Origin: a virus
Virus record (IMG/VR): IMGVR_UViG_3300005336_000059
Coordinates: 1-20,827 of that record
Strand: one strand, 5' to 3'
DNA: 20,827 nt
Every line of letters begins with the position of its first letter. Position 1 is the stretch's first letter. Below are positions 3,595 to 20,770 of this stretch, piece by piece. The position numbers were made by a program, and so were the translations under genes. Under the pieces are notes generated by a model. It did not search any database and had not been told where the DNA came from. It saw only the letters and a program-made list of their open reading frames with translations.

Positions 3595-4830
3595 TCACAA
3601 TCCAGCCGCAGGAATCTTGTAGAGAAAGGTGGACCTATCGATACCGCCAACGAATACAAACGCCATGCGCCCGTCGCCCATATCCGGTACGAGTCTGAAC
3701 TTACCGAATGTGCCCGAATCGGCTGCGGTGGTCGTAGGCGTAACGCCGCCAGTTATGACATCGGAGCATTGGAATGTGCCGGCGGAGTCGTACACTTTAC
3801 GACCGTTCGAAATCTTCGTCGGGATCTTGATCTTCTTGAGGGTGCCGCCCAAATTCTGCGGATCGCCCAGAATGATCGCGTTCGAAATCGGGAGATACCC
3901 GCCGCTGCAACGCCCGGTCGTATAGGGCGTGCCCGTGAAACTGCTCACGATCTGGAACGAGGTCGCCATGGCAGCGCCGCTGATATCTAGCACGAGCACG
4001 CGATGATTCGCGCCATCGCCGACCAGGATGATGCGCAAATCGTGAGCGCAGACACACCACATGGCGTTCGCAAAAGGATTTCCGCCATTGGCGACGAGCA
4101 TTTCAATCTGACCGGCGCTGGGACCCAGTGTATTGACGCGCCAATACCAGAACGTCGTGCGATCTGCACCGAAGCCGGAGAAATTGTAGGTGTAATGGCC
4201 CCACGGGTCTGCGCAACCGCAGCCGAACGTGTAAGAGCCGTTGGAATCGGCATTATCCATGCCGGGAATCGGTCCCACGCATGTCCACGGATTAATCGTG
4301 CCGCCATTGTCCGTATGCGGCATCGGGCTTGCCGCAGCCCCGAGGGCGTCGCGGTTAAAGCTCGAAACGCCAGCGCGCGCATTTCCACCGGCCGGCGTCG
4401 CACTCTGCGCGCCGAACCACACCTTCCCGTCGAGCCATACAGGGAAGCCAGACGTGTGGTCCGCTCGCGGACGGCCATCGCTGTAGGTCAGTACCCCGTT
4501 AGTATTGGTGTAATTGGCCAGTCGAGCGTTCGGCGTAGGATCCGAAATCCTTCTCCAGGCGGGCGTACTGTTGCGCAGCGAAAGCGCGTAGCCCTCGTTA
4601 CCTGGATAGTCGGCGTGTCCGCCGCCTCCAATCATCATGTATTCGGCGCGTCGCACGTCGACCGCTCCGCCGACCCAGGATTCTGTAATCGCGCTCGAGT
4701 GCTCCCCGCCCAGCGGCGTGCTCGGGAAGGGACTGGGAAGAACGTCCGTGATGCGCCCGCCGCGCTGCGCAATCGGCAAGTCGGTGCGGCCAGACCCGGC
4801 AGCGATTTCGATCCACGTCCCGTCGTTCAT
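3595..4830 (-). CDS. Kelch / galactose-oxidase-like beta-propeller protein (411 aa)
   Basis: The start is placed at ATG 4830 because it overlaps the upstream stop (ATGA). A more upstream ATG at 4875 would overlap the preceding gene by 49 nt. Early in the protein is a WVGGAVDVRRAEYMMIGGGG block followed by YPGNEGYALSL. This is the typical kelch blade pattern: Gly-Gly pair, then Tyr, then a strand ending in L-x-L. Further blades are suggested by DGKVWFGAQS, RIILVGDGANHRVLVLDI and MAFVFVGG. Many phages carry such propellers next to tail fibres, where they probably bind carbohydrate. There is no secretion signal. Enzyme activity cannot be judged because the copper ligands of galactose oxidase are not recognisable. 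Confidence 0.6.
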   Translation of the reverse strand: MNDGTWIEIAAGSGRTDLPIAQRGGRITDVLPSPFPSTPLGGEHSSAITESWVGGAVDVRRAEYMMIGGGGHADYPGNEGYALSLRNSTPAWRRISDPTPNARLANYTNTNGVLTYSDGRPRADHTSGFPVWLDGKVWFGAQSATPAGGNARAGVSSFNRDALGAAASPMPHTDNGGTINPWTCVGPIPGMDNADSNGSYTFGCGCADPWGHYTYNFSGFGADRTTFWYWRVNTLGPSAGQIEMLVANGGNPFANAMWCVCAHDLRIILVGDGANHRVLVLDISGAAMATSFQIVSSFTGTPYTTGRCSGGYLPISNAIILGDPQNLGGTLKKIKIPTKISNGRKVYDSAGTFQCSDVITGGVTPTTTAADSGTFGKFRLVPDMGDGRMAFVFVGGIDRSTFLYKIPAAGL

Positions 4831-10958: not shown

Positions 10959-11167
10959 AGCGCTTCCCCGTATGTCGCGCGGAACAAAGCGGCGAACGTC
11001 GGACCACCCTCTGAACTCGGCTGCTCCATGTAGCCGCCGTTTCGGATGACGCCGCGGAAGTGCTCGCGCCGAGTCTTCGGGTCCGTCGTGCCGCTGAAGG
11101 CGTTCACCTTAGCGCCGACGTCGCGCAGCTTCGACTGCAGCCAGAGTTCTTGGACGAGTTGGCTCAC
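10955..11167 (-). CDS. Small phage hypothetical protein (70 aa)
   Basis: The start is GTG 11167, overlapping the stop of the P-like gene (GTGA). It begins with a helix (QLVQELWLQSKLRDVG) followed by a basic segment (TDPKTRREHFRGVIRNGGYMEQP). No family is recognised. It is embedded in an overlapping replication operon, so expression is very likely. It may be an accessory replication or nuclease partner by position only. Confidence 0.5.
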   Translation of the reverse strand: MSQLVQELWLQSKLRDVGAKVNAFSGTTDPKTRREHFRGVIRNGGYMEQPSSEGGPTFAALFRATYGEAL

Positions 11168-11760
11168 GCGGCCATCCTTTGCGAAATCTCAGCCTCAGCG
11201 CGTTCGAAGTAATCGCGCCATACTGACTTCTGCAGATCGACATCCACTGGCCCGGTCCCGCCCTGATCGATCATGTCGGCAACCCATGCCTTTTTCGCAG
11301 CGACGAGACGCTCGATATTGCGTACGAAGTCCTCGGATGCGTCGGCATGTGGGAATCGCTCTCGGCTCAATCGAGCCATGCCCGCCGCCGTCGCAGGCCG
11401 GCCGTAGCGCATAGGGTCGGCCTGCAGGTTGCGATTCAGGTATCCCTGGAGGAAACGTGTTCCCTGGAGTTCCCATGGATTCGCCTCTGGCTCGTCAGGC
11501 TGTCGAATCTGCTGCGGCGCGCCCTTCGCGCGCAGCGCGCGCTTGGCGTCCCACACATGCGCGACGCCGAAGCTCTTCGGCGGCTCCTCCGTTTCGAGCT
11601 TAGCGAGAATGTGATCGCGGCACCGCGAAAGCTCGACAATCCCCATGCGCTGTAGTCCCTTCCAGAAGGCATCGCGCTTGGACTCACTCAGCGGTTTGTC
11701 GATAGCACCGAAAATCTCAGCCAGAATGCCGTCGAATGCCGTGCGGTCACCCGGTTCCAC
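11164..11760 (-). CDS. Putative P-like replication/helicase-loader protein (198 aa)
   Basis: The start GTG 11760 has AGAGG six bases upstream and overlaps the O-like gene by 14 nt. A farther ATG at 11853 would overlap it by 107 nt. The N-terminal part (RTAFDGILAEIFGAIDKPLSESKRDAFWKGL, with the following helix ELSRCRDHILAKLETEEPPKSFGVAHVWDAKRAL) resembles the N-terminal helical domain of phage P-type helicase loaders: F-x2-I/L pairs, S/E-x2-K, W-x2-L, then a proline break. The C-terminal half is helical and basic. The position directly after an O-like gene supports the idea. No ATPase motif is seen, as in lambda P. The call is tentative. Confidence 0.45.
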   Translation of the reverse strand: MEPGDRTAFDGILAEIFGAIDKPLSESKRDAFWKGLQRMGIVELSRCRDHILAKLETEEPPKSFGVAHVWDAKRALRAKGAPQQIRQPDEPEANPWELQGTRFLQGYLNRNLQADPMRYGRPATAAGMARLSRERFPHADASEDFVRNIERLVAAKKAWVADMIDQGGTGPVDVDLQKSVWRDYFERAEAEISQRMAA

Positions 11761-12610
11761 GATTCGCCTCTCTCGCCTCGAGTTCTGCAGTGGTTGGCGC
11801 GGGCGTGTGTACGGCGCGGCGCATGCCTTGCGTGCGAGCGCGGACGTCCCCAATCGGAATCAGCGCCTTGAACCCGTTCTCACAGCAGTAGTCGACGACC
11901 TCAGACTGATTTCCAAAGTCACCGTTTCCTGCCAGCCGCCTCGCCTGCGCTAGACGCATGGCTGGCGACATGGGTCGTCCCTGCAGCTCGACGTGAACGA
12001 TCCACTTTGCGAACGCCTCTGGGTTTGCTTCCGGCACGTCCCTGCGCCAATCCTCCAACAGCGAGCTGAAAGCCGCCTCCACGACCGTTCCACGAGGAAC
12101 CTCCGCACCGCCCGCGCGTGCTCTCTCTCTCTCTTCTTGGTCTGGTCTCTTCTGGTCTGGTCTGGTCTGGTCTGGTAACGCAACAGCGTTACGCTTTTCT
12201 GGCGGCTGTAACGCAGCGTCGTTAGAATGGTTGGAACGATGCTTGCTAACACGCTTCGCAGTGAGCGCATTCTTCTTGGCTCTGGTGCCGTTATGGTCTT
12301 GAAATCCTGGCAATTTTACGCGCTGCGCGTCGAGAACCTCGAGCCAGTCAGCCGGCAAGAGTTGAGAGAAACCCTCGATGCCGGTGAGCTCGTCTATCTC
12401 GTCGACAGTCATCTCGAGCGTGTCGTCATCGCGGGCGAAGGTATCGGCGTGCATCCAGAGTTGGTTGAGTCCTCCGAGCACCAGCGTTACAGCTATCTGT
12501 GAGCTGTAACGCACATGCGTTACAACCCCGCGCTCGATGAGCAAGCGGGCGATTCGTTTCACGCGCAAGTCTTCTCGGAGGTCCTTCTCCACCTTGATCC
12601 AGCCACTCAC
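11747..12610 (-). CDS. O-like phage replication initiation protein (287 aa)
   Basis: The start GTG 12610 overlaps the stop of the small upstream gene (GTGA). It gives an N-terminus SGWIKVEKDLREDLRVKRIARLL typical of phage replication proteins with a winged-helix DNA-binding domain. A second typical element is LPGFQDHNGTRAKKNALTAKRVSKH near residue 100-125. A low-complexity charged linker follows (PDQTRPDQKRPDQ, then EERERARAGG). The C-terminal part (about 175-265) is likely to contact the helicase loader. The gene contains six copies of GTAACGC in two clusters, as expected when the initiator gene carries its own origin. The name rests on motif resemblance and context. Confidence 0.6.
   Translation of the reverse strand: MSGWIKVEKDLREDLRVKRIARLLIERGVVTHVRYSSQIAVTLVLGGLNQLWMHADTFARDDDTLEMTVDEIDELTGIEGFSQLLPADWLEVLDAQRVKLPGFQDHNGTRAKKNALTAKRVSKHRSNHSNDAALQPPEKRNAVALPDQTRPDQKRPDQEERERARAGGAEVPRGTVVEAAFSSLLEDWRRDVPEANPEAFAKWIVHVELQGRPMSPAMRLAQARRLAGNGDFGNQSEVVDYCCENGFKALIPIGDVRARTQGMRRAVHTPAPTTAELEAREANRGTG
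12141..12175. repeat. TCTGG pentanucleotide repeat
   Basis: Five tandem TCTGG units (12151-12175) are preceded by TCTCT and one more TCTGG. An alternating CT tract lies beyond. On the minus strand this encodes PDQTRPDQKRPDQ and a charged EERERA run in the linker of the O-like protein. Pentamer slippage would shift the frame of that gene. Confidence 0.85.
12175..12523. other. Iteron cluster, candidate replication origin inside the O-like gene
   Basis: The heptamer GTAACGC or its complement GCGTTAC occurs at 12175-12181, 12186-12192, 12208-12214, 12484-12490, 12506-12512 and 12517-12523. Two pairs form identical 7-4-7 inverted repeats (12175-12192 and 12506-12523). A third arrangement, 12484-12512, has perfect 11-bp arms (GCGTTACAGCT / AGCTGTAACGC) around seven bases. 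Lambda's origin also lies within its O gene as inverted-repeat iterons bound by O. The flanking sequence is not AT-rich, so the unwinding element, if any, is not evident. Confidence 0.55.
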
Positions 12611-12777
12611 CGCCCGGAGAGCCTCATCGCCGACTCCCATGCACCGTAGGTCGCGAAGCCCATGATGGCGAGCCAGTAGACGGCGGCCTGCCAATTCACT
12701 CGACGTGAGTGGCGATCAGTCTTCCGGCGGCGTGGGCAATCCCCCCACTGCTCGCCGGACCAATGTTTTTCCGTCAT
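12607..12777 (-). CDS. Small single-pass membrane protein (56 aa)
   Basis: The frame starts at ATG 12777 with GGGGTG six bases upstream and ends in a TGA that overlaps the GTG start of the O-like gene (GTGA). The first half is hydrophilic and basic (PRRRKTDRHSRRV). The second half contains a hydrophobic aromatic helix (AAVYWLAIMGFATYGAW) that could span a membrane. No family is recognised. The coupling to the next gene and the ribosome-binding site make it convincing as a coding gene despite its size. Confidence 0.55.
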   Translation of the reverse strand: MTEKHWSGEQWGDCPRRRKTDRHSRRVNWQAAVYWLAIMGFATYGAWESAMRLSGR

Positions 12778-12822: not shown

Positions 12823-13185
12823 CTATTCGTCGTCTAGATGGCGGGACAACTCCGCGAGTAGTGCCGAGACGCGTTGCTTCTTCGCGCGCTTCTTCGCTTC
12901 CGGTGCGGACAGCGGCTCGACTTCGTACCCCCATTCGCGGGCGAAAAACTGCATCAGAGAATCGTCGCCGCCGTCACGGGCAAGGCGACCGATCATCAGA
13001 AGTTCGGCAGGGTCTAACTTTTGCGCGTGCTCGGGATTCAGCCCGCCGCGCAGGCGCGCGGTAGCGGAGTCCGAATCGAGCGCCGGCCACAGTTTCGCGG
13101 CGACTTTCTTCCGGCCGCCCGCAGCCTCGACGGCGGCGCCGAGGGCGTCGTACACGCTGTCGTGCCACAACTGGGACTGCTGCAT
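12823..13185 (-). CDS. CII-like phage transcription regulator (120 aa)
   Basis: The pattern DALGAAVEAAGGRKKVAAKLWP, then ARLRGGLNPEHAQKLDPAELLMIGRLARDGGDDSLMQFFAREWGYEV resembles the phage CII (CP76-type) regulators: a Gly-Gly turn, an L-x-LNP-x-x-x-x-KLDPAELL core and a C-terminal helix ending near a conserved hydrophobic residue. These act on promoters of the lysogeny pathway. A basic tail follows (EAKKRAKKQR), then helix SALLAELSRHL. Its ATG overlaps the stop of the Cro-like gene by one base (TAATG), as cII follows cro in lambdoid phages. Replication genes come next. Confidence 0.6.
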   Translation of the reverse strand: MQQSQLWHDSVYDALGAAVEAAGGRKKVAAKLWPALDSDSATARLRGGLNPEHAQKLDPAELLMIGRLARDGGDDSLMQFFAREWGYEVEPLSAPEAKKRAKKQRVSALLAELSRHLDDE

Positions 13186-14779: not shown

Positions 14780-15547
14780 ATGAACGCGAACCTGATCGAC
14801 ACGAGCAAGATGAGTGACCGCCACGAGGTCGCCGTCGTTTCGGACGCCTCTGCACTGATTCAGGTGATCGAGCGCGCCGCGCGCGACCCGAGCATCGACA
14901 TCGACAAGATGGAGCGTTTGATGCAGATGCACGAGCGCCTCATGGCAAATCGCGCGAAGGTAGCCTATGCCGCGGCACTGGCCCGCCTCCAGCCGCAGCT
15001 TCCCATGCTGGACGAGCGTGGCGAGATCAAGAACAACGCCGGGAACGTGCAGAGTCGTTACGCGCTGTGGGAGGACATCGTCACGGCGATCACGCCGATT
15101 CTGGCCGGAGAAGGTTTTTCGCTCTCGTTCCGCACTGGGAATCCGGAAGGCAAGATCCGCGTGACGGGCATTCTGACGCATGCAGAAGGCCACAGCGAGG
15201 AGACAACGCTGGACCTTCCCGCTGACACCTCCGGCGCCAAGAATGCCGTCCAGGCCGTAGCGTCGAGCGTCTCGTATGGCAAGCGGTACACGGCTGGCGC
15301 GTTGCTGAACCTTCGCTCGGGTGAGCCGGACCATGACGGCCGCGAGCCCGAGCCTCGCGTCAGCGAGCACCAGACGGCCGAACTGAAGGCGCTCATCACG
15401 GAGCACGGCGGCAACATGGGCAAACTGCTCGCCTACTTCAAGGTCCGATCACTCGATGAGATTCTCGCGAAAAACTACGATTACGCAGTGGCCGAGGTAA
15501 AGCGCCTTGCTGCGGCGCGGGAAGCTGCGAAGGCTGGGAAGTCGTGA
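14780..15547 (+). CDS. erf: ERF-family single-strand DNA annealing protein (255 aa)
   Basis: The central region (about residues 59-178) carries the ERF family pattern: KVAYAAALARLQPQLP, then SRYALWEDIVTAITPILAGEGFSLSF, VTGILTHAEGHSEETTLDLP and AVQAVASSVSYGKRYTAGALLNL. ERF proteins form rings that anneal complementary single strands in phage homologous recombination. The C-terminal part (about 196-255) is helical and probably binds a partner. AGGAG lies five bases before the ATG. The exonuclease gene follows with a GTGA overlap, the usual annealase-exonuclease pair. The length is normal for the family. Confidence 0.9.
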   Translation: MNANLIDTSKMSDRHEVAVVSDASALIQVIERAARDPSIDIDKMERLMQMHERLMANRAKVAYAAALARLQPQLPMLDERGEIKNNAGNVQSRYALWEDIVTAITPILAGEGFSLSFRTGNPEGKIRVTGILTHAEGHSEETTLDLPADTSGAKNAVQAVASSVSYGKRYTAGALLNLRSGEPDHDGREPEPRVSEHQTAELKALITEHGGNMGKLLAYFKVRSLDEILAKNYDYAVAEVKRLAAAREAAKAGKS

Positions 15548-16155
15548 TTGAGGTCTTCTGCGTCGAGCAGAATTCGCCCGAGTGGTATGCCGCTCGGCTG
15601 GGGATTCCGACGGCGAGCAACTTCGCGGCGGTACGCGCGAAGGGCGAAGGCAAGACACGCAGGACCTACATGATGAAACTCATCGGCGAAATCATGACCG
15701 GCGAGCCTTGCGAGAACTATTCCAACGAGCATATGGAGCGCGGCCACACGATGGAGCCAGATGCCCGCAATCTCTATGCCTTCCGCATGGACGTGGACCC
15801 GACGCCGGTCGGCTTCGTGCGCAACGGCCGCAAGGGCGCCTCGCCAGACTCGTTCGTCGGGAACAACGGCGTATTCGAGACCAAGTCGAAGCTCCCTCAC
15901 CTGCAGGCCGAAGTGTTGCTCGCGAACAGGCTCCCTCCTGAACACGTCGCACAGTGCCAGGGACTGCTATGGGTCTGCGAGCGCGAGTGGGTCGATTTCT
16001 GTTCGTACTGGCCGCGCATGCCGCTGTTCGTCAAGCGCGTGTATCGCGATGAGGAGTACATCAAGGCGCTCGCCTCGGAGGTCGATCTGTTCCTGCGCGA
16101 GATGGACACCTATCTTGCGGTGCTCCGTGACGAGCCGCTAAGGGTAGTCGCGTGA
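15544..16155 (+). CDS. YqaJ-family (lambda-exonuclease-like) recombination nuclease (203 aa)
   Basis: N-terminal EQNSPEWYAARLGIPTASNF is the hallmark of YqaJ proteins. The active-site elements are E65-R-G with E71, then ASPD102 and the E112-T-K114 strand (E-x-K), followed by the Q-rich helix (HVAQCQGLLWV). These correspond to the PD-(D/E)xK core of lambda exonuclease. The protein degrades duplex DNA ends to give 3' single strands for the Erf product. All key residues are present and the length is typical. The start is GTG 15544 overlapping the Erf stop. Confidence 0.9.
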   Translation: MIEVFCVEQNSPEWYAARLGIPTASNFAAVRAKGEGKTRRTYMMKLIGEIMTGEPCENYSNEHMERGHTMEPDARNLYAFRMDVDPTPVGFVRNGRKGASPDSFVGNNGVFETKSKLPHLQAEVLLANRLPPEHVAQCQGLLWVCEREWVDFCSYWPRMPLFVKRVYRDEEYIKALASEVDLFLREMDTYLAVLRDEPLRVVA

Positions 16156-17142: not shown

Positions 17143-17366
17143 AACGCGGGAAGCTCGTCACGCTGGAAGAGTGGGCGAATGCGACCTACGCCGGCCGCTC
17201 GCCCAGCATCTACACGCTTCGCCGCTGGTGTAAGGCCGGTCGGATCTTTCCGATTCCGGAGAAGCACGGCCGCACGTACTATGTGGCCGAAAACGCGCGA
17301 TACATCGAAAACTACAACGCATCGGCCATCCTGGGGGCTCTCCATGACTCCACGTCGACGCAGTAG
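17139..17366 (+). CDS. xis: Excisionase (Xis-like, 75 aa)
   Basis: The 75-residue protein reads LVTLEEWANATY, then SPSIYTLRRWCKAGRIFPIPEKHGRTYYV. This corresponds to the winged-helix of lambda Xis (L-T-L-x-E-W, then T-x-R-R-W-x2-x-x-R-I-F-P-x-P-x-K-x-G-R-x-Y). Xis bends DNA at attP and directs Int to excision. The start is GTG 17139. Its 3' end overlaps the integrase start by 23 nt, as xis and int also overlap in lambda. The identification is good from motif and context. Confidence 0.85.
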   Translation: MKRGKLVTLEEWANATYAGRSPSIYTLRRWCKAGRIFPIPEKHGRTYYVAENARYIENYNASAILGALHDSTSTQ

Positions 17367-18435
17367 CGGCAAGCGCGGCTGGCCCGCCCACCTGTACGAG
17401 CGCAAGGGCTACTTCTGCTGGCGCCATCCGGTGACCGGCGAGGAGTACGGACTCGGGCGAGATCGAGCGGCTGCATTCACGCAGGCGATACAGGCCAACC
17501 TACATCTCGCCGGGCTGGGCCAGAAGGAAACCCTGCTAGACCGCATCACAAGCGACGGCAAGCCGCGAACCGTTGCGGCCTGGTTCGCCCGCTACGAGGA
17601 GTTGCTCGACGAGCGCGAGCTCGCTCCGAATACCAGACGCAGTTACAAGAGCCTCGCCGCGCGCGCCACGGCGCTCTTGGAAGGCGATACGAAACTCAAG
17701 GCGCTGACCGCGCTCAAGGTGACTGAGAAGCTTGCCGAGGTTGCCAAGGCCGGCCAGCAGCGCACGTCGCAAGCCCTGCGTAGCTTCTTGCATGAGAGCT
17801 TCCGCGTCGCGACGGTGCAGGGATGGCTCGATGAAAACCCGGTGCGGGATGTGCACGGACCTAAGGTGCAGGTCCGGCGGGCCCGCCTCACTCTCGAGAC
17901 ACTGCTCGCAGTGCACCGGACGGCTGCACCTTGGTTGCGCAGCGCCATTGCCCTTGCTCTGGTGAGCGGCCAGCGCCGGGAGGATGTGGCCCGCGCGACG
18001 TTCGCGGATGTACGGGACGGCGGCTGGTGGGTCGTCCAGGGCAAGACGAAGACTCGAATCGCCATCCCGCTGGAGCTCCGCTTGGACGTTTTCGGGATGA
18101 GCCTTGAGGACGTGGTGAAGCAGTGCAGGTCGACCGGTGTGCTCAGCAAGCATCTTGTGCACCAGACCGAATCCCGCGGGAACAGCCCGCTTGGCCGACC
18201 GATCTGGAAGGACACCATCAGCCGACGGTTCTCGGCCGCGCTGGCGGAACTCAAGCTCGACTTCGAGGGGAAAGAGCCGCCCACCTTCCACGAGATCCGC
18301 AGCCTGTCCTCGCGGCTCTACAAGGCGCAGGGCGGCGTAAACGTGCAGGAGCTGCTCGGCCACCGCAACGCCAAGACGACCGAGATGTATCAGGACGGCC
18401 GCGGCGAGTGGATTCGCGTGAGCCTAGGGGGCTGA
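17344..18435 (+). CDS. int: Lambda-type tyrosine integrase (363 aa)
   Basis: ATG 17344 lies within xis and gives a normal 363-residue protein (lambda Int has 356). Domains in order: arm-binding N-terminus (to about 60, with the short aromatic motif YFCWRHPVTGEEYGLG), core-binding SAM-like (about 72-175), catalytic (about 180-363). Catalytic residues in the expected order and spacing are R211 (SGQRRED), K236 (GKTKTRIAIP), H316-x2-R319 (FHEIRS), H340 (LLGHRN) and Y349 (TTEMYQD). It integrates and, with Xis, excises the element. Arm-type-like repeats begin at its stop codon. Confidence 0.92.
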   Translation: MTPRRRSSGKRGWPAHLYERKGYFCWRHPVTGEEYGLGRDRAAAFTQAIQANLHLAGLGQKETLLDRITSDGKPRTVAAWFARYEELLDERELAPNTRRSYKSLAARATALLEGDTKLKALTALKVTEKLAEVAKAGQQRTSQALRSFLHESFRVATVQGWLDENPVRDVHGPKVQVRRARLTLETLLAVHRTAAPWLRSAIALALVSGQRREDVARATFADVRDGGWWVVQGKTKTRIAIPLELRLDVFGMSLEDVVKQCRSTGVLSKHLVHQTESRGNSPLGRPIWKDTISRRFSAALAELKLDFEGKEPPTFHEIRSLSSRLYKAQGGVNVQELLGHRNAKTTEMYQDGRGEWIRVSLGG

Positions 18436-18876: not shown

Positions 18877-18906
18877 ATGAGCGCGGCTGCGCCGAAATCC
18901 CGGCGC
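18660..18906 (+). pseudogene. Cys-rich HNH/zinc-ribbon-like remnant
   Basis: In the frame starting with positions divisible by 3, the DNA encodes YRRASIRERSGGRCQCDG, ICGAEHTGPCPNVEG and later ELCAGCCRPYSAERF. C-x-C-x3-C-x3-H-x3-C followed by C-x2-C-C matches zinc-binding HNH-type or ribbon domains seen in small bacterial and phage proteins (CECxGxCG-xxH-xGxC). There is no ATG, GTG or TTG near its start; an ATT at 18675 is preceded by GGAGG. It has no stop until 19910, having run through the second integrase gene in another frame. It may be a broken gene or a frame-shifted N-terminus. Confidence 0.3.
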
Positions 18907-19752
18907 ATGGACACCTACACACCCGAGACGGCTCCGGTAACCGTCAACGAGATCCTCGACCGCTACGAGAAAGACTGCCTCAAACAGCTGGCACCGCGCA
19001 CCCGCGCGGATTACCGCCGGCACATCCGGCACCTGAAAGCCCGGTTCGGCCCGCTCGCCGCCGAGCATCTGAAGCCGAAGGACTTCGGTCCGTTCCTGGA
19101 CGTGCGCAAGGGCCGCACGCACCGGGTTCGCGCGCTCGCAGTCCTGTCGGCCGCGTTCACTCAGGCGGTGAGCTATTGGTATGTGCTCGAGCGCAACGTC
19201 CTGCGGGATGTGAAGCGCCCGAAGAATCCGCCGCGCGACCGGCTAGTGACGCCCGAGGAATTCATCCGCTGCCAGTCGATGGCATCGAAGCGCGTCGCGC
19301 TCGCCATGGAGCTCGCCCTGCTCACCGGTCAGCGCCAAGGGGATGTCATCGGCTTCCGCTGGTCGGATATCCACGGCATGGAGCTGCACCTACAGCAGTC
19401 GAAGACGGGCAAGCGGCTCGCCATCGGCATTACGCCGCGGCTCGAGGCCGCGCTCGATGCGTGCTGGCAGCTGAAGGGCGGTGGGTGCGACGGGAGCGCG
19501 TTCATTGTGCCGAAGCGCAACGGGCAACCCTACACTTCCGAGGGCTTCCGCGCTGTGTGGCAACGCCATATCAACCGCTACTGCCGACTTGGCAACGAGC
19601 GTTTCCAGTTTCGCGATCTGAGAGCGATGGCGGCTACTTCCTGCCCCACCCCCGAGGCTGCACGCCGACTGTTAGGTCACAGCAATATCAGTATGACGAT
19701 GAAAGTTTACCGGCGCGGACTGGAGCATGTGGACGCGCTGACGCCGCCGTAA
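18877..19752 (+). CDS. Second tyrosine recombinase (291 aa)
   Basis: Core-binding SAM-like domain (about 20-115: VNEILDRYEKDCLKQLAPRTRADYRRHIRHLK) and catalytic domain (about 122-280). Active-site residues are R153 (TGQRQGD), K176/K179 (SKTGKR), R246-D-L-R249 replacing the usual H-x2-R, H268 (LLGHSN) and Y278 (MKVYRR). The R-D-L-R variant occurs in other phage integrases. No arm-binding N-terminal domain is present, so it is shorter than Int. Start could be ATG 18877 or ATG 18907; neither has a good ribosome-binding site. It may belong to another element adjacent to the phage. Confidence 0.85.
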   Translation: MSAAAPKSRRMDTYTPETAPVTVNEILDRYEKDCLKQLAPRTRADYRRHIRHLKARFGPLAAEHLKPKDFGPFLDVRKGRTHRVRALAVLSAAFTQAVSYWYVLERNVLRDVKRPKNPPRDRLVTPEEFIRCQSMASKRVALAMELALLTGQRQGDVIGFRWSDIHGMELHLQQSKTGKRLAIGITPRLEAALDACWQLKGGGCDGSAFIVPKRNGQPYTSEGFRAVWQRHINRYCRLGNERFQFRDLRAMAATSCPTPEAARRLLGHSNISMTMKVYRRGLEHVDALTPP

Positions 19753-20293: not shown

Positions 20294-20770
20294 ATGCGTG
20301 CGCCACGATCTGACAAGGGAGTTCCGAAGTATTCGGACGCTGCCTTTATTGCGAGGCATTCCAAAAGCAATCCCGCTGGCTGCTGGATATGGAGCGGTTC
20401 TGTGAACTCGTGGGGTTATGGTCGTGTTGGGCCAAATCGTCCTGAGCGCGCAGCGCACAGACTCTCCTATGTCACCTTTAGAGGCCCAATTGCAGACGGA
20501 CTCAACGTCCTGCACAAGTGCGACACGCCAGCCTGCGTGAATCCATCTCATCTATTTCTAGGGACTGGAACGGAAAACATGAGAGACATGGCGGCGAAAG
20601 GCCGCGCCGGAGTAAAGCGTGGAGAGGCCAACCCGCTTGCAAAACTCACGTACTCCGCAGTGACCGAAATCAGATCAAGCACTGAGACGAGCGCGTGCCT
20701 CGCGAGAAAATTTGGCGTGAGTCATAAGGCAATTAGGCTCGCGCGGGGAGGAATCACATGGAATCGCTGA
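20294..20770 (+). CDS. Homing-type HNH endonuclease (158 aa)
   Basis: The HNH_3-type core is clear: CWIWSGSVNSWGYGRV, AHRLSYVTFRGPIADGL, then H74-K-C-D77 and C81-VNPSH86-LFLGT with E-N-M-R-D-M after it. A C-terminal DNA-recognition part (ANPLAKLTYSAVTEIRSS, then ARKFGVSHKAIRLARGG) is helix-turn-helix-like as in homing nucleases. Such free-standing nucleases spread within phage populations. It is intact: active-site His and Asn are present. ATG 20294 has only a distant GGAG. Confidence 0.88.
   Translation: MRAPRSDKGVPKYSDAAFIARHSKSNPAGCWIWSGSVNSWGYGRVGPNRPERAAHRLSYVTFRGPIADGLNVLHKCDTPACVNPSHLFLGTGTENMRDMAAKGRAGVKRGEANPLAKLTYSAVTEIRSSTETSACLARKFGVSHKAIRLARGGITWNR

Follow-up and report, generated by a model that had tools for sequence, protein, structure and literature searches.

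The replication origin of phage lambda (O-some) lies inside the initiator gene O, at the linker that follows the N-terminal DNA-binding domain, and contains four annotated 18-bp iterons, which are interrupted palindromes arranged in one block. These iterons are followed by an AT-rich tract that has been described as crucial for unwinding (PMC7466680). The DnaA-trio is a short strand-specific repeat located near a double-strand initiator site (PMC10797057), and repeats within the O-like gene of Pseudomonas phage MD8 have been mentioned without detail (PMC8508860). For the proteins of PHROG families 2509 and 9474, such as gp12 of TL-2011b and the 'primosomal protein I' of Olaya, no published origin and no paper on the arrangement described below were found in the open-access literature, and the literature searched contained no binding or replication experiment on this initiator family. 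Phage P4 has a bipartite origin (ori1 and crr), whose two parts are separated by kilobases and do not both lie in the initiator gene, and its alpha protein is a primase-helicase.

Here, we analyzed a 20,827-base virus record (IMG/VR record IMGVR_UViG_3300005336_000059, positions 1 to 20,827; hereafter, the window), in which a minus-strand gene contains six GTAACGC heptamers in two clusters (A and B). An initial annotation had proposed a candidate phage replication origin inside this gene, which it called O-like, and our analysis supported the proposal: the six heptamers are very probably half-sites of 18-bp (7-4-7) sites bound by the product of the same gene and, together with an adjacent array of AGACC pentamers, form the replication origin of this temperate phage. 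By position and layout, the initiator would work like lambda O. The putative origin is contained in the initiator gene, where it maps to the linker that follows the N-terminal DNA-binding domain, at the place corresponding to that of the lambda iterons; the 7-4-7 dyad spans 18 bp, as do the lambda iterons; a strand-asymmetric tract directly follows the last iteron; and the gene order is cI-cro-cII-O. Unlike in lambda, however, there are two iteron clusters, the heptamer is unrelated, the half-sites also serve as direct repeats at 11 bp, a GC-rich AGACC array stands in place of the AT-rich region, and no membership of the protein in the lambda-O Pfam family could be detected. The label 'O-like' therefore holds for position and architecture (gene order and an origin within the gene) but not for sequence family. 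Two separated clusters of initiator sites are also found in P4, although in the window both lie within the initiator gene. The PHROG 2509/9474 proteins of TL-2011b and Olaya share the N-terminal domain, the GTAACGC iterons, and the two clusters, but differ in that cluster A lies in another loop and the tract reads AGAGA/GAGGA rather than AGACC.

The initiator gene and its protein

The gene, an ORF of 315 aa (11747–12694, minus strand), was assigned as a replication initiator from its PHROG matches and an AlphaFold2 model. The homologues start at the equivalent of a GTG at 12610, which corresponds to a protein of 287 aa. Residues 30–192 matched the replication initiation families phrog_2509 and phrog_9474 (E-values of 3.3e-19 and 4.7e-17, respectively), and both families were matched by 39 of 39 aligned relatives. 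Some of these 39 also matched further O-like, primosomal, and DnaD-like families, and the C-terminal domain appears to have been exchanged among relatives. The window protein matched no Pfam family at E ≤ 0.1, and hence not the lambda-O model (Phage_rep_O), which was also absent among the matches of the 39 members at E ≤ 1.

The AlphaFold2 model consisted of a confident domain (approximately residues 41–160), a disordered linker (approximately 163–202), and a helical C-terminal domain. Residues 43–135 aligned with winged-helix domains at modest Z-scores, all below 8; the best structural match was the winged-helix domain of CRP (Z 5.8, 72 aligned, rmsd 2.5), and the N-terminal domains of plasmid initiators (4pql, 4pt7, and 5kbj) gave Z-scores of 4.8–4.5. 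At these modest values, the predicted N-terminal domain can be described as winged-helix-like. A sequence search of the initiator against solved structures gave no match, and Foldseek gave no significant match in the PDB. In genome_contigs, neither a relative, searched for by protein, nor an exact composite site was found, the first alignment being too divergent for that scan.

Two clusters of heptamers in the window

A position search confirmed the earlier observation of six exact heptamers in both orientations within 350 bp, at 12175 (+), 12186 (−), 12208 (+), 12484 (−), 12506 (+), and 12517 (−). A lone seventh copy at 3740–3746, outside the initiator gene, is consistent with chance. Dinucleotide shuffles of the whole window gave a mean of 2.23 copies, in agreement with the previous expectation of fewer than three, and 1 of 100 shuffles reached at least seven, with no clustering required. 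Of all 7-mers, GCGTTAC/GTAACGC showed the densest clustering within 350 bp anywhere in the window. When synonymous codons were shuffled with the protein fixed, 0.42 copies were expected in the gene compared with the six observed, and none of 300 shuffles reached six.

The six heptamers form two clusters 298–331 bp apart. Cluster A comprises a GTAACGC-N4-GCGTTAC dyad at 12506–12523 and a third heptamer at 12484–12490 (minus strand), which pairs with 12506–12512 in inverted arms; cluster B comprises the same dyad at 12175–12192 and a third heptamer at 12208–12214 (plus strand), located by the heptamer search. The initial annotation was thus correct in describing one 7-4-7 palindrome that occurs twice, 331 bp apart, and a third copy that forms 11-bp perfect arms (12484–12494 and 12502–12512). 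Cluster A as a whole (12484–12523) is an inverted copy of cluster B (12175–12214), with 70% complementarity, and the heptamer spacings are mirror images (11/22 bp in one cluster and 22/11 bp in the other). Cluster A codes for residues 58–70, i.e., the loop before helix 64–86 and the start of that helix, and cluster B codes for residues 161–173, i.e., the end of helix 137–162 and the start of the disordered linker.

Conservation of the repeats as DNA

The 47 loci fetched by protein alone, together with a few others, yielded 42 distinct genes. In most homologues, the commonest private heptamer was GTAACGC itself or one of its one-base variants (GTCACGC, GTTACGC, GTAATGC, GTAATGG, or GTAACGT), the positions being kept while the sequence changed. 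Sites of this motif family were concentrated in the same two regions as in the window, with 298 of 335 in approximately 13 kb in total and 37 in the remaining 21 kb, and 33 of the 42 genes had at least two sites in each region. Neighboring sites were mostly spaced by 11–12, 22–24, or 33–34 bp (98 of 117 spacings measured 11–12, 22–23, or 33–34 bp), and sites were found in every reading frame and in both orientations. The TTA codon accounted for 58 of 135 leucines in the iteron regions but 32 of 863 outside them (43 and 4%, respectively; p about 2e-33). The distance between clusters A and B varied among the homologues (about 250–330 bp) without clear helical phasing. Overall, the repeats are conserved at the DNA level, and a layout of two clusters is standard in this initiator family rather than an oddity of the window phage; the initial annotation had rightly set this layout apart from the single block of lambda but had not recognized it as a family trait. 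It had also named two outcomes that would speak against an origin, and neither was found: relatives that keep the protein keep the repeats, even across changes in iteron sequence, and the repeats are not equally dense elsewhere, the density of GTAACGC in the relatives being 3.87 per kb within the gene but 0.11 per kb in the DNA around it, with one further copy in the window.

A blind scan of viral contigs for the bare dyad GTAACGCNNNNGCGTTAC retrieved 100 stretches, approximately 20 of which carried initiator homologues, and several of these homologues had two dyads 282–331 bp apart. Unusually long or overlapping heptamer arrays were observed at four loci (L462, L037, L240, and L009), including a run of nine GTCACG sites that follows HNG in L462 and overlaps resembling GTAACGTTAC in L009 and L240.

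More distant relatives (approximately 33% identity) included Xanthomonas phage Olaya, E. coli phage TL-2011b, a Klebsiella phage, phage ctnlZ23, and further contigs. This branch carried the same heptamers, again in two clusters, but cluster A was located approximately 35–55 nt after the LW codons, compared with 30–75 nt before them in the main group, which places it after rather than before helix 2 and in another loop of the protein. Such retention of the repeats in a different protein loop is hard to explain by selection on the protein. At least two sites on both sides were found in 15 of 29 further homologues, and the heptamers were absent from a Cobetia phage relative.

Covariation of the iterons with residue 149

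The codon of V149 (12248–12250, minus strand), in helix 137–162, covaried with the third base of the iteron. Residue 149, which lies outside the iteron-coding stretches, was picked post hoc by grouping a first set of homologues on this base (A, C, or T): A occurred mostly with V, and C or T with Q, K, or M. The first set showed covariation at two further positions on that face of the helix, 145 and 152. Among 29 homologues outside that set, Q or K was present in 17 of the 18 with C-type iterons and V in none of these 18, and V or T was present in 6 of 9 A-type but 0 of 20 C- or T-type homologues (Fisher p 1.8e-4). The overall pairing was A with V, I, or T and C or T with Q or K, and C-type iterons never occurred with V. 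Scored as A or not A, the iteron base changed approximately 14 times on a tree of 67 rows, and the independent pairs ran approximately 5:0 in one direction only, a borderline result (p 0.03–0.125). This covariation supports the view that the encoded protein reads the heptamer.

A strand-specific array beside cluster B

The feature list of the initial annotation was incomplete, having missed a strand-specific array of six AGACC units at 12139–12173 (minus strand, the sense strand of the gene), with six sense and no antisense copies. At the junction, the last linker iteron is followed by one C and then by the array (GCGTTAC-C-AGACC). Of the 39 scored genes, most had TTAC, TCAC, or TGAC in the last iteron, right before the array. 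In 37 of 41 relatives, the sense strand carried 2–10 copies of AGACC at intervals of 5–6 nt, and a single antisense copy was seen in the whole set; the distant branch shared the junction but with AGAGA or GAGGA as the unit. Arginine was encoded by AGA at 67 of 95 positions in the tract but at 32 of 935 outside it (p about 2e-57). No AT-rich unwinding region was found by the clusters in the window, where the GC content between and beside them was 52–66%; the AGACC array is present instead.

A possible small stem-loop (GTTCC-TCGT-GGAAC; 12087–12100, minus strand) lies 3' of the array. In the window, its 5-bp stem was weak and no better than the control, but longer stems occurred in many relatives, with at least 6 bp after the array in 26 of 41 compared with 14 of 41 control stretches; the hairpin is suggestive only. 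A T-free strand was also considered as a separate signal and rejected: the longest T-free run after the linker was not longer than in synonymous shuffles, and we therefore make no claim based on it.

Scans for AGACC/AGACA arrays also retrieved ORFs with matches to different replication-initiator PHROGs (20981/2562, 22470/3992, 270/9327, and 186), in which the array follows private repeats of another kind; six further array-bearing ORFs (L176, L185, L195, L198, L199, and L216) had no PHROG match. A purely initiator-specific array was rejected, since the AGACA form also occurred inside DNA methyltransferase-like genes, and the array sequence is thus suggestive rather than diagnostic of an origin. 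We tentatively consider, at somewhat less than even chances, that the AGA-pentamer array (AGACC, AGACA, or AGAGA) is a general strand-specific element of initiator-embedded phage origins, read by a common host or ssDNA-binding factor, with iterons private to each initiator; in the present family, the iterons would in addition be divided into two mobile clusters that flank the codons of the DNA-reading domain, and residue 149, located in the post-wing helix, would read iteron base 3. Such an element would be a phage counterpart of the DnaA-trio, to which it is analogous as a short strand-specific repeat near an initiator site, but the unit is a pentamer rather than a 3-mer, the phage initiator is unrelated to DnaA, and the ssDNA role is putative.

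Long (AAGAC)n pentamer repeats were observed inside or at the start of DNA methyltransferase-like genes of phage contigs (L203, L206, L208, L212–L215, L219, L225, L233, L245, and L250; methyltransferases called by eye), and these tracts may serve phase variation instead of being origin arrays.

Proposed origin function and alternative explanations

The sequences are best read as a lambda-like origin inside the initiator gene, in which the iterons would be split around the codons of the DNA-binding domain and a GC-rich, strand-asymmetric tract would replace the AT-rich region. We infer binding, looping, melting, and helicase loading, with a need for both clusters. In cluster B, and in cluster A as well, the N-terminal domain of the initiator would bind the heptamers, which are helically phased, and the two clusters would probably be joined through DNA looping over about 250–330 bp. 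The nucleoprotein complex abutting the array would melt it and expose the strand-specific AGA-pentamer tract, which may then be held by the initiator or a partner, and the C-terminal domain and the product of the downstream gene would recruit the host helicase. The split of the iterons probably reflects protein tolerance, since codons dictated by the DNA would fit only in the disordered linker and in variable loops of the winged-helix domain.

Replication initiators often autoregulate, and two inverted, helically phased clusters would suit looping repression; the repeats could accordingly be operators of the initiator or of another phage regulator, acting as a roadblock or looping repressor, with the origin elsewhere. 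We consider this improbable, as neither the start of the gene nor the cI-cro region contained a heptamer, cluster B adjoins a strand-specific array that is kept in most homologues and would be needless for an operator, and the lambda origin is located at the same place in the gene. Far less credible still is the explanation that the repeats are a by-product of selection for recurrent peptide motifs of the protein (NAxALPDQTRPDQ and VTL): although the linker peptide NAxALPDQT is well conserved in the main group, rare codons are forced, the heptamers are in excess over synonymous shuffles, the sites use all reading frames and both orientations, the iteron sequence and the peptide change together (VTLGSRSR in L008), and cluster A occupies another loop in distant relatives.

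A sub-case of the origin reading restricts the origin to cluster B and the array and treats cluster A as a separate control element (handcuffing, copy number, or timing). It would fit the location of cluster B and the array at the gene position of lambda's single block, as well as the variable distance between the clusters and its lack of clear helical phasing. However, at least two sites were kept on both sides in 33 of 42 homologues, and cluster A was kept even where displaced, and we regard this restriction as possible but rather doubtful. Cluster A could also have another role, e.g., in autoregulation or copy control.

With both clusters and the array as the preferred origin, the replication origins of a large temperate-phage group in which they are unannotated would be defined at the sequence level, and other origins could be sought through private iterons and then the shared AGA-pentamer array. 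The one-base iteron switch and its matching residue make initiator specificity directly testable. An array common to several initiator families bears on how double-stranded DNA is opened without an AT-rich element or DnaA, and on the choice of strand for the helicase.

Neighboring genes and other features of the window

Upstream of the initiator gene, a CII-like regulator was predicted at 12823–13185 (minus strand; phrog_101, E 1.3e-4); its match to Pfam Phage_CP76 (E 0.009) was below the cut-off. A repressor-like gene lies on the strand opposite to the initiator, in the same order as in lambda. CI/Cro operators were ruled out as an identity for the repeats because the immunity region contains no heptamer. 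The downstream ORF (229 aa; 11164–11853, minus strand) occupies the position of lambda P and is, by position only, a candidate helicase loader; it had no convincing Pfam or PHROG match. The ORFs at the lambda P position in L009 (5858–6409) and L010 (920–1456) had phrog_10105, of unknown function, in common.

On the plus strand at 14780–16155, an Erf-like annealing protein adjoins a YqaJ/RecE-like exonuclease, a phage recombination pair. Two tandem integrase-like ORFs (17179–18435 and 18877–19752, plus strand) both matched phrog_1 and are followed by an HNH endonuclease at 20294–20770.
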